Position numbers and translations under genes: made by a program
Virus record (IMG/VR): IMGVR_UViG_3300037160_000083
Location: 1 to 20,802 of that record
DNA from: a virus
Length of the DNA: 20,802 nt
Reading direction: 5' to 3' (one strand)
The notes under the pieces: generated by a model
Databases searched by the model: none
The model's input: the letters and a program-made list of their open reading frames with translations, nothing else
Told to the model about the DNA's origin: nothing
Part shown: in pieces, positions 7,843-14,533 of the stretch
How positions within the stretch are numbered: position 1 is the first letter of the stretch
Layout of the letters: each line of letters starts with the position of its first letter

Positions 7843-8463
7843 TCAGTATACGATGGCAACGCTGGCAGCGTCGAGCACGGGAGGTAGTCTGACGAACTTC
7901 CCCGTCTCCCAAACCGGCGTGCGGCCTAACCGTAGCAGGCGGTCAAGCGTGAGCGGCCTGTACTGCATCAACTCCGCCGAGATCAGAATATGACGTCCGT
8001 CCTCTATCAGATTGCCACGGTGCCCGTACGGTGTGTGCAAGTGTCCATGGACGTTGAAGTGCGCGCCAAGTGCGTCGAGTACGCCGGACGGGAGAGGCTC
8101 GTGCGAGAACGTCAGCGTGCGTCCACGGTAGTCCAACACCGCGAGTTTGACTACAGCATCCCAGCCTAGTTTGAGCGACCAAGCGATACTTGGATTGTCG
8201 TGGTTGCCTAATACTAGTAGCGTGGAGACGAAGCGGGAACGGAGATCCGACAGGAATTGTCGAGCCAAGTCCTCGCCAGATCGGTACAGACATACGTCTC
8301 CTAAATTGATTAGTTGGTCACCGGAACGTAGGATTTGTAGGCCAGTTCGGATCGACTCGGCAAAATTGGCGGGACGATGTTCGAGTTCGACGAGTTTGTC
8401 GTGTCCGAGGTGCCAGTCGCTCGAAACGTAGATGTCGGGAACGCGGTCCTGGTCTAGATTCAT
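7843..8463 (-). CDS. Calcineurin-like metallophosphoesterase
   Basis: A 206-residue single-domain metal-dependent phosphoesterase. All five family motifs are present: D16-W-H18, G-D56 (LINLGDVCLY), G-N87-H88-D (LVLGNHDN), H121 (FSHEP) and H139-G-H141-L-H143. These residues build the di-metal site that hydrolyses phosphomonoesters or diesters. The substrate cannot be read from the sequence. The position directly after the tRNA array and near RtcB makes RNA-end or cyclic phosphate processing a reasonable guess only. TGCTATACT ends 8 nt before the ATG at 8463; AGGAA overlaps the gap, so either leaderless or SD initiation is possible. Confidence 0.85.
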   Translation of the reverse strand: MNLDQDRVPDIYVSSDWHLGHDKLVELEHRPANFAESIRTGLQILRSGDQLINLGDVCLYRSGEDLARQFLSDLRSRFVSTLLVLGNHDNPSIAWSLKLGWDAVVKLAVLDYRGRTLTFSHEPLPSGVLDALGAHFNVHGHLHTPYGHRGNLIEDGRHILISAELMQYRPLTLDRLLRLGRTPVWETGKFVRLPPVLDAASVAIVY

Positions 8464-8654: not shown

Positions 8655-9161
8655 TTACGCGAACAAGTACCTGTTCCAGACTTCCTGATCTCCTTGCATC
8701 AACCTCAACTTCGCGTGTATCCCAATTGATCTAGGCGGACGCGCGAGCGCCATCCCGGCTTCGGCTGGCGTCCTGTCGCCTTTACGATTATTATCGGAAA
8801 AACAACAGGCAACCAAATTGTCCCACGTCGATTGACCGCCGCGAGAGCGCGGCACCACATGATCCAAGGTGAGATCTTTGGACGGTAGCGTATGTCCACA
8901 GTACTGGCACGTGCTCTGATCGCGCAGAATAATTCCCTTACGCGAGACCGAACGGTTGAACCGCGGCACGCGCCGATACCGTACCAGCCGAATCACGGAC
9001 GGGAGACGGATCTCCAATTGCGAAGTGTGGATAACGTGGTCGGACGGAACTTCCACGACGGCTGCACACTTACAGATGAGCTTCATCGCACGACGTGCGG
9101 AACAGATGTGGATCGGTTCAAAACTGGCGTTGAGAACTAACACTAGATGATTTAGGCTCAT
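8655..9161 (-). CDS. HNH endonuclease (bacterial/phage 5-methylcytosine-type HNH family)
   Basis: A 168-residue protein. The N-terminal half (VLNASFEPIHICSARRAMKL, then RLPSVIRLVRYRRVP) and the C-terminal HNH core (CQYCGH, LTLDHVVPRSRGG, NRKGDRTPAEAGM) match a widespread stand-alone HNH family. The second metal-binding cysteine pair is altered: where ACxxCN is expected the sequence has ACCFSDN. It starts 9 nt after the RtcB stop and ends 3 nt before tRNA-Arg(CCU), so it is embedded in the tRNA transcript. A role as a mobile nuclease or in DNA processing is inferred. Confidence 0.9.
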   Translation of the reverse strand: MSLNHLVLVLNASFEPIHICSARRAMKLICKCAAVVEVPSDHVIHTSQLEIRLPSVIRLVRYRRVPRFNRSVSRKGIILRDQSTCQYCGHTLPSKDLTLDHVVPRSRGGQSTWDNLVACCFSDNNRKGDRTPAEAGMALARPPRSIGIHAKLRLMQGDQEVWNRYLFA

Positions 9162-9170
9162 GGTCTATCC

Positions 9171-10346
9171 CTAATCCCGGTACGGATCGACTTCCCGCTC
9201 GCCCGCCATCGCCACGCCAATCGGTTTCAACGCGTGCAAAACGCGAATACTTCCCGCGTGTTCCGCCAGCACGTCCGTCAACCGTTTGTAACAGTCCGGC
9301 GACTCGTCCACTCCAGCCCCGCGCAACTCCACGTCCGCACGGCTCACCCACCCGTCCATCATCGCCTGCGTTACCTTACCGACGCGCTTTACCTCACCCG
9401 TGCGCCGATCCACCTTTCCCTTCGCCTCCATCCTGCCCATAACTCGTCCAGCCCCGTGGATGGTCGAATAGAGGGATAGCCCCGCGTCTTCGTTCTCGAC
9501 GCCCTCGATTATGACCGAGATCTCTCCCATACTACCCCCGACGAATCCGCGCTGGCCGGGGAAAGCTGGCGTAGCTCCCTTACGAACCACCCACAACATT
9601 TCGCCTTGGTGCTCTTCACGCCACGCGAAATTATGGTTGTTGTGTACTTCCTCCAGCACGTTAGCGCCAAGGATCTTAGCCACCCGTTCGCTAACCCAGT
9701 CACGGCCTGCGTAGGCGTAACGTCCCGCCAACGTCATACAAGCGAGATAGTCGGCACCCATACTGTCGGTGGCCGAGATCACGCACGGCTCCACGTCCAT
9801 CCCGTCCTTCGCGCCGGCGGCGTTTAGGAAGTACGTCGCGGTTTTGTGTCCGAGTCCGCGCGATCCGAAATGTACGCCGATCCACACGCGCCCGAGTTCG
9901 TCCTCGAAGATGTCAACGTAGTGGTTGCCGGACCCGACCGTACCAAGTTGTTGGTGCGCCATTTCCTTAAGCGGCGCGACTGCGGTTAGTTTCCACGCAT
10001 CGTCGTCGAACAGTTCGTGGTCGATCCGCTCGTTGTTTTTTCGACCGACGCCGAAACTGATAATGCGAAACACGTCGTCCATAATCGTGGAGATGTTACG
10101 GCGCACGTCCGTTACGTCCGCGTCGGTTAGGATAGCGCGGTTTCCACAACTTATGTCGAACCCGACTCCCGACGGACTGATCTTGTCTTTGTACGCCACC
10201 ACCCCGCCTATAGGCACTCCATACCCAGCGTGGTGGTCGGCCATAAGCGCCACCCGGTCGGCGGTTTTAGCGCACGTTTTGATCTGGCGTAACGCCCACT
10301 CGTCCACGGGCGTACCCCATACTGGAATTCCATCGATTAGTTGCAT
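9171..10346 (-). CDS. rtcB: RtcB-type RNA ligase (3'-phosphate/5'-hydroxyl RNA repair)
   Basis: A 391-residue ligase that joins RNA ends left by tRNA-cleaving nucleases (2',3'-cyclic phosphate or 3'-phosphate to 5'-OH) using GTP and Mn2+. Metal and GTP motifs are intact: ADHHAGYGVPIG, SGVGFDISCGNRAI (Asp64, Cys67), VGSGNH (His142), VHFGSRGLGH (His159), HNNHNFAWRE, GATPAFPGQRG and the guanylylated His297 in HGAGR. The length fits the short RtcB subgroup. No archease or RtcA lies nearby. It sits inside the tRNA array between tRNA-Lys(UUU) and an HNH gene and shares their transcript, so repair of phage or host tRNAs cut by defence nucleases is the natural inference. Confidence 0.95.
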   Translation of the reverse strand: MQLIDGIPVWGTPVDEWALRQIKTCAKTADRVALMADHHAGYGVPIGGVVAYKDKISPSGVGFDISCGNRAILTDADVTDVRRNISTIMDDVFRIISFGVGRKNNERIDHELFDDDAWKLTAVAPLKEMAHQQLGTVGSGNHYVDIFEDELGRVWIGVHFGSRGLGHKTATYFLNAAGAKDGMDVEPCVISATDSMGADYLACMTLAGRYAYAGRDWVSERVAKILGANVLEEVHNNHNFAWREEHQGEMLWVVRKGATPAFPGQRGFVGGSMGEISVIIEGVENEDAGLSLYSTIHGAGRVMGRMEAKGKVDRRTGEVKRVGKVTQAMMDGWVSRADVELRGAGVDESPDCYKRLTDVLAEHAGSIRVLHALKPIGVAMAGEREVDPYRD

Positions 10347-10383: not shown

Positions 10384-10460
10384 TGGTCCGCCGAGCCGGT
10401 CCCGCCCCGGCTGCGTCCTGTTTAAAAGACAGGTCCACGTTCTCTCAGTGGTATCGGCGG
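10384..10460 (-). tRNA. tRNA-Lys(UUU) with altered elbow
   Basis: Acceptor CCGCCGA/TCGGCGG, discriminator A and CCA are encoded. Anticodon stem CCTGT/ACAGG with loop CTTTTAA. The T-loop is GGCGGGA instead of TTCRANY and the D-loop TGAGAGAAC has no GG but offers A18-G19 opposite G55-C56. First RNA upstream of rtcB. Confidence 0.85.
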
Positions 10461-14072: not shown

Positions 14073-14160
14073 CTTTACGGCGGGCGCTCTACCATTGAGC
14101 TAACGGCCTCGGAAGCAAGGGAGGTCGTACTGGACTCGAACCGAACATCTCCCGCCTGCT
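14073..14160 (-). tRNA. Candidate circularly permuted (or rearranged) tRNA: 3' half precedes 5' half
   Basis: In transcription order a 3' half comes first (14160-14122): anticodon-stem strand GCGGG, variable AGATG, T-loop TTCGAGT and acceptor strand ACGACCT. After 12 nt comes a 5' half (14109-14073): acceptor strand AGGCCGT, TA, a perfect GCTC-AATGGTA-GAGC D-arm, and anticodon-stem strand CCCGC. Joined in tRNA order, the anticodon stem pairs 5/5 and the acceptor 6/7 (one C-A). The T-stem is damaged, no CCA follows, and the anticodon cannot be assigned. It is either a permuted tRNA gene or the scar of a tandem-duplication deletion. Confidence 0.55.
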
Positions 14161-14236
14161 TGGAGCGACCACCCGGCTACGATCCGGGAACCTCGACTTC
14201 GGCAAAGTCGCGCTCTACCCGTTGAGCTATGGCCGC
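14161..14236 (-). tRNA. tRNA-Gly(GCC)
   Basis: Anticodon GCC (complement at 14201-14203). Acceptor GCGGCCA/TGGTCGC, discriminator U, CCA encoded, D-loop GG. T-loop ATCGTAG has A54. The permuted tRNA halves follow its CCA immediately. Confidence 0.92.
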
Positions 14237-14243
14237 GAAACTT

Positions 14244-14444
14244 TGGTCGGTCCTGACAGTTCGCCGTTTGAGTTACCAGGATTTCACAGATGTTCCGTTA
14301 GCGCGAATCGTCATCCGCGCCGCTTTGTCTTCTGGTATCTACCTGTCGTCCACCGGCGATAAGGCCGGAGCACTTTTTCCATACCCGTCAGCTCGTGAGG
14401 TACGCCTCGGATCGCCCGCAAGGGTGGCTCAGTGCTTAGGACCG
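14244..14444 (-). ncRNA. 201-nt RNA with tRNA acceptor and encoded CCA, tmRNA-like topology
   Basis: The ends form a perfect 7-bp acceptor CGGTCCT/AGGACCG followed by discriminator A and CCA, exactly as in neighbouring tRNAs, but the interior is about 183 nt. It contains GAGG-CGTA-CCTC, CCGGC-CTTATC-GCCGG and GCGCG/CGCGC hairpins, a possible TGAG..ACC/GGT..CTCA long-range helix near the ends, and a GCACT/AGTGC pairing. There is no T-arm with UUC, no G3-U70 and no 5' GGUUCGAC signature. It could be a divergent phage tmRNA, a tRNA holding an intron, or a new CCA-ended RNA. Confidence 0.5.
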
Positions 14445-14457
14445 AAACTTTCAAAAA

Positions 14458-14533
14458 TGGAGCGTCCTGCGGGTAACCCTCCCGCTTAAAACTGGTTTGG
14501 AAGACCAGTGCCTCAGTTTTCGGCCAAGGACGC
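14458..14533 (-). tRNA. tRNA-Gly(UCC), second copy, altered elbow
   Basis: Anticodon TCC (complement at 14499-14501) in loop CTTCCAA. Acceptor GCGTCCT/AGGACGC, discriminator U, CCA encoded. T-loop AGGGTTA has G55-G56; the D-loop AAAACTGA can supply A18-C19. Unrelated in sequence to the other tRNA-Gly(UCC). Confidence 0.85.

Follow-up and report, generated by a model that had tools for sequence, protein, structure and literature searches.

The tRNA arrays of phages are generally regarded as codon supplements or as spares against tRNA-cutting defences. The bacterial Y RNA YrlA has a permuted tRNA topology, and tmRNA (RF00023) closes a large interior with a CCA-ended acceptor. The archaeal multi-intron tRNAs described in a 2014 review are interrupted at more than one place and occur in genomes that also encode RtcB, and the carriers of permuted tRNAs that it names are archaea, algae, and a nucleomorph (PMC4033280). 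GOLLD and ROOL are presented in PMC12286853 as structured noncoding RNAs of phages and prophages, of unknown function and often near tRNA islands.

Here we describe a 201-nt element in the tRNA array of a soil phage. It follows an elongator tRNA (RF00005) in its place within an array, its encoded CCA, its 7-bp acceptor and 2-nt linker, and the lengths of its D-stem (4 bp), anticodon stem (5 bp), variable region (5 nt), and T-stem (5 bp, running without a break into the acceptor). It departs from one in its length, its 58-nt D-loop, its 83-nt T-loop without a UUCRA motif, and its 6-nt anticodon-type loop. Unlike tmRNA, it has its inserts in the D- and T-loops rather than in the anticodon region, and it has no T-loop of the canonical kind. 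It differs from the archaeal multi-intron tRNAs in its bacterial host lineage and in that excision gives no canonical tRNA. GOLLD and ROOL, in contrast, are described as much larger (many GOLLD RNAs exceed 800 nt) and are not tRNA-shaped (PMC12286853).

The element and its place in the array

The window, by which we mean the whole 20,802-bp stretch of DNA that was analyzed, is an IMG/VR virus record with a minus-strand array of 28 tRNA genes (ARAGORN). Further array tRNAs were found with Rfam, with relaxed ARAGORN, and with the strict descriptor defined below (10384-10460). The window also encodes a portal protein, a terminase, and the RNA ligase RtcB, the last about 4 kb from the element. Among GenBank phages, RtcB has its best match in Tunturiibacter phage Tunturi_5 (66% identity), for which 43 tRNA genes and a tRNA ligase have been reported (PMC11924767). 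Because of this match, and because the terminase has relatives in Acidobacteriota genomes (5 loci), the phage host is probably an acidobacterium. The terminase ORF (7791-5731, minus strand) has an apparent insert near its N terminus that is intein-like by eye, and its relatives align to both flanks.

The sequence-only reading of this locus, which named no strand, had reported a perfect 7-bp acceptor with A-CCA enclosing about 183 nt and several hairpins. We found that all three statements hold on the minus strand, which is also the strand of the array (CGGTCCT...AGGACCG-A-CCA, 14444-14244). CGGTCCT (14444-14438) pairs with AGGACCG (14254-14248) at 7/7 positions and is followed by A and CCA (14247-14244), the acceptor encloses 183 nt, and the computed fold contains several interior hairpins. 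We also found tRNA spacing at every junction of the minimum-energy fold, where the linker is AA and a single T separates the D-stem from the anticodon stem. All stem pairs (21/21) are Watson-Crick. The features are as follows.

14458-14533, minus strand: upstream neighbor tRNA-Gly(tcc), with an unusual T-loop (ARAGORN relaxed score)
14244-14444, minus strand: the element, a 201-nt CCA-ended tRNA-shaped unit (minimum-energy fold and strict descriptor)
14438-14444, minus strand: acceptor 5' strand CGGTCCT (fold; pair probabilities 0.91 to 1.0)
14432-14435, minus strand: D-stem 5' strand GCAC (extended to 6 bp in the fold)
14374-14431, minus strand: expanded D-loop, 58 nt (one imperfect hairpin in the fold)
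14370-14373, minus strand: D-stem 3' strand GTGC (fold)
14353-14368, minus strand: anticodon-type arm CCGGC-CTTATC-GCCGG with a 6-nt loop (fold)
14343-14347, minus strand: T-stem 5' strand GACAG, after the 5-nt variable region TGGAC (pair probabilities about 0.7)
14260-14342, minus strand: expanded T-loop, 83 nt (one inner helix plus two hairpins, without a UUCRA motif)
14248-14259, minus strand: T-stem 3' strand CTGTC running into the acceptor 3' strand AGGACCG (fold)
14244-14247, minus strand: discriminator A and encoded CCA (sequence)
14237-14243, minus strand: spacer AAGTTTC before tRNA-Gly(gcc) (sequence)
14161-14236, minus strand: downstream neighbor tRNA-Gly(gcc) (ARAGORN, Rfam)
9171-10346, minus strand: gene for the phage RNA ligase RtcB, close to the array (Pfam PF01139, E = 7.7e-67)

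The element fills the slot between tRNA-Gly(tcc) and tRNA-Gly(gcc) and has an array spacer on either side. AAAGTTT lies directly 5' of it, and the ACCA end is followed by AAGTTTC and then by the next tRNA. An (A)AAGTTTC spacer is found again after the ACCA of tRNA-Ile(tat) and after that of tRNA-Glu(ttc). When 380 nt were cofolded, tRNA-Gly(tcc), the element, and tRNA-Gly(gcc) formed three separate units. In the syntenic contig L006, which has a matching tRNA order, the element is absent and tRNA-Gly(tcc) is joined directly to tRNA-Gly(gcc) with one base between them.

A pattern search with the 3' end of the element returned 15 stretches, of which 4 are the ends of genuine phage tRNA-Arg(TCG) and 11 are not tRNA ends. 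The element matches tRNA-Arg(TCG) at 15/16 positions of the 16-nt 3' end and at 11/13 of the first 13 nt, and the 12 nt at 14248-14259, comprising the 3' strands of the T-stem and acceptor, are identical in the two. As tRNA-Arg(TCG) shows, an end with this sequence can work as a tRNA end. Because the search was made with the 3' end and 11/15 matches are not tRNA ends, the resemblance is weak evidence of descent.

The fold has an energy of -72.9 kcal/mol (z = -2.69, with 2/200 shuffles as low; 204 nt). For the 201-nt sense strand, z was -2.31 (6/200 shuffles as low), and for the antisense strand it was -0.23. In these models the structure is strand specific, being unusual in the sense strand and not in the antisense strand. 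The z-score alone is weak evidence, because structure is also present in other spacers of this array and of related ones, in some cases with a lower z-score (23 stretches tested). Two structured spacers of the window (12704-12457 and 13648-13541, minus strand) have perfect 9- to 11-bp closing stems without CCA and z-scores of -2.87 each. A single family uniting the element with structured spacers (window 12704-12457, L059 4888-5113, and L073 6734-6928) through a AAGAGTAA-like motif was considered and rejected: the motif recurs at many unrelated sites, and none of these three spacers was matched by the covariance model of the element.

A nondecoding RNA or a broken tRNA gene

We read the element as a nondecoding tRNA-shaped RNA, predicted to be one unit of the polycistronic tRNA array, and we rate this reading just short of an even chance. 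Its probable ancestor is a tRNA gene in which structured domains took the place of the D- and T-loops. A likeness to tRNA had already been proposed from the letters, and it held for the acceptor, D-, anticodon, and T-stems with their tRNA spacing in a tRNA slot; the loops of a decoding tRNA are absent. According to our model, the array transcript would include the element, host RNase P would cut it at C14444, and the 3' side would be trimmed to the encoded CCA. The coaxial stack of acceptor and T-stem, with the CCA end, would protect the RNA and offer it to enzymes that bind tRNA, while the swollen elbow loops and the anticodon-type loop would exclude it from decoding. Decoding is unlikely because that loop, CTTATC, has 6 nt, where a tRNA has 7. 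In a phage that also bears RtcB, the RNA could then serve as a decoy or a structured scaffold, for instance one that counters host defences that cut tRNAs. Such a role may be suggested by its neighborhood of RtcB and a tRNA array.

We looked for relatives of the element. None was found by blastn and nhmmer in 129 loci, by a single-sequence covariance model in 42 sources, or by the covariance model over 27 whole contigs, where the one match covered 14 bases (E = 8.8). An exact 18-mer searched for in all viral contigs gave no match to a homolog, and the region had no match in the GenBank phage collection. Of two Acidobacteriota genomes, one gave no match and the other gave three weak matches of 19 to 31 bases (best E = 0.061). 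By these comparisons, the element is an orphan among the sequences searched, from which records very close to the window may be missing, and because it has no homolog, covariation evidence is absent.

The orphan status favors another account, namely, that a tRNA gene was broken by two insertions, one in the D-loop and one in the T-loop, and is now a recent pseudogene whose RNA function is gone and whose stems are intact because the event is recent. We regard this as a real, if doubtful, possibility. The missing copy in L006 agrees with it, as do interrupted tRNA genes in the same array, such as tRNA-Trp halves at about 16323 and 15810 split by an ORF and a second tRNA-Trp and a Gly(TCC)-type tRNA at 12005-11896 with about 35 extra nt. 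However, insertion boundaries, repeats, and second copies of the loop sequences were looked for and none were found. A recent insertion should also leave the canonical loop sequence behind, and no excision brings back a consensus T- or D-loop. Insertions into the loops do not explain a 6-nt anticodon-type loop, and the fully Watson-Crick stems likewise argue against decay; few tRNAs pass the strict descriptor, so the 21 pairs are better preserved than those of most genuine tRNAs in the array. Because the stems are fully Watson-Crick, the anticodon-type loop has 6 nt, and excision does not bring back canonical loops, we lean slightly toward a nondecoding RNA over a wrecked tRNA gene.

Introns, chance, and known RNA families

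The topology had also been taken to suggest a tmRNA or an intron-bearing tRNA, with the proviso that the hallmarks of both were missing. We found that the proviso was correct and that neither assignment held. In an intron-bearing tRNA, a hypothetical endonuclease would cut out the two loop inserts and the phage RtcB would ligate the ends, in an archaea-like manner. The nearby RtcB gene is consistent with this, as are the oversized tRNAs of phage contig L161 with about 50-nt inserts in the anticodon stem (by eye) and the multiple noncanonical introns of archaeal tRNAs (PMC4033280). However, of 17 simple splice products of the element, 0 had a UUCRA-type T-loop and 0 had a GG-bearing D-loop, so introns in both loops were rejected. 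The element itself lacks the UUCRA motif, we found no Rfam group I match, and ARAGORN gave no intron model at both ends. The anticodon-type loop would still have 6 nt, the terminase relatives belong to Acidobacteriota, which are bacteria, and no splicing endonuclease was found among the 10 proteins scanned in this 20.8-kb fragment. We therefore consider splicing improbable.

We also considered whether the element is an inverted repeat that arose by chance in a spacer that is not transcribed. A 7-bp acceptor with NCCA within 66 to 260 nt occurred 9.6 ± 3.4 times in each shuffled window (50 shuffles, both strands scanned); such pairs are frequent by chance, and on its own the acceptor with CCA is weak evidence. 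We then used a strict descriptor with the stem lengths of the element, free D- and T-loops, an anticodon loop of 6 to 8 nt, a variable region of 3 to 6 nt, and Watson-Crick pairs only. On both strands of the window it matched the element, four single tRNAs, and one chimera of neighboring tRNA-Thr genes, leaving the element as the sole non-tRNA unit. The full Watson-Crick cloverleaf was found in 0/200 and 0/3,000 dinucleotide shuffles, counts that overstate significance since the descriptor was written after the fold had been seen. With looser linkers, the descriptor found no oversized unit in 129 related loci (1,854,608 bases), and none was found in 41 further loci (418,809 bases), many of them tRNA rich. 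When G-U pairs were allowed, it matched 1 in 200 shuffles and a number of loci, and a relaxed spacer scan, with 1,254 matches in 243 spacers, cannot discriminate. The post hoc descriptor weakens the significance, yet not enough for chance to be likely. The frequency of acceptor-CCA pairs and the lack of conservation speak for a chance repeat, but against the empty shuffles and a location flanked on each side by an array spacer and a tRNA, we give it little probability.

The covariance searches proposed for tmRNA and group I introns found neither at the element. No Rfam 15 family, tmRNA included, matched it when 501 nt were searched at E values up to 5; the same holds for GOLLD and ROOL, on the assumption that both families are in the library. 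The RF00005 covariance model did not match the element, and ARAGORN found no tmRNA. The tmRNA search method works, as it gave a match of 106 bits in L018, a more distant RtcB-bearing phage contig. These families are excluded at the tested thresholds. A reduced tmRNA or a member of another known RNA family would fit a CCA-ended acceptor around a large interior, and L018 has a true tmRNA, but without an Rfam match, an ARAGORN tmRNA, or a T-loop this is extremely improbable. A mimic of the 16S 790-loop in the T-loop (GTAGATACC) was dropped, as the string is found in many places. The exact 16S 790-loop string GGATTAGATACCC occurs in a phage spacer at L068 20279, possibly by chance.

Permuted units and interrupted tRNAs

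Using a permuted-tRNA descriptor over 2.29 Mb, we found six places: one in the window, three in L068, and one each in L139 and L172. We take the matches in L139 and L172 for the 3' ends of ordinary tRNAs that pair by chance, and the third match in L068 (20421-20530) has a competing reading. In shuffles, the descriptor gave 3 matches per 1,000 for the window and 1 per 1,000 for L068. The remaining units are as follows.

14080-14155, minus strand, window: permuted tRNA-like unit in which the 3' half precedes the 5' half (permuted descriptor)
8254-8352 and 8356-8427, plus strand, L068: two tandem permuted tRNA-like units (perfect T-arms)

The window unit lies between tRNA-Gly(gcc) and tRNA-Thr(tgt), and its two tRNA halves pair together, with 6/7 acceptor pairs, 5/5 anticodon stem pairs, only 3/5 T-stem pairs, and no CCA. 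Judged by sequence, the L068 units are better examples. The one at 8356-8427 is nearly perfect (acceptor 7/7, T-stem 5/5, D-stem 4/4, anticodon stem 5/5, 8-nt linker), and this phage contig encodes RtcB too. As the two units are only three bases apart, they cannot both obtain 7-nt anticodon loops from the gap, and they resemble tRNA-like modules more than decoders. The permuted units are predicted to form circularly permuted modules in which the acceptor end is closed and the anticodon end open. We found no report of permuted tRNAs in phages in the literature searched. We do not claim YrlA membership for 14155-14080: its Rfam YrlA score of 19.3 bits is far below threshold and lower than the 24.3 bits from ordinary tandem tRNAs at 13947-13876.

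Rather unlikely, in our estimate, is the broader proposal that RtcB-bearing tRNA-array phages use array slots for nondecoding tRNA-fold RNAs of two kinds, loop-replaced (the element) and permuted (window 14155-14080 and L068 8254-8427), which may be decoys or scaffolds for tRNA-recognizing enzymes, with RtcB as a partner. An array slot that makes a nondecoding tRNA-shaped RNA would point to another use of phage arrays. Such units could be common and unseen, because tRNA finders and Rfam miss them. The expanded-loop and permuted descriptors can be applied to all phage arrays.

Other tRNAs in these arrays are interrupted or enlarged. At about 16323-15808 (minus strand), a tRNA-Trp that corresponds to the tRNA-Trp of L006 is interrupted close to its anticodon loop by an insert that contains an ORF (16262-15849) and a complete tRNA-Trp (15928-15856). 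The ORF is HNH-like by eye and has no Pfam match; the insert is possibly a selfish element with a spare tRNA. The tRNA at 12005-11896 (minus strand) is 110 nt long, has the anticodon TCC, and carries its extra nucleotides in the variable region. In L161, the spacers at 8950-9797 and 10009-10157 (minus strand) hold CCA-ended tRNAs of 131 and 138 nt. Their anticodon-stem inserts have a common ATGGTTATC-like 3' end and look by eye like small tRNA introns in a virus contig.
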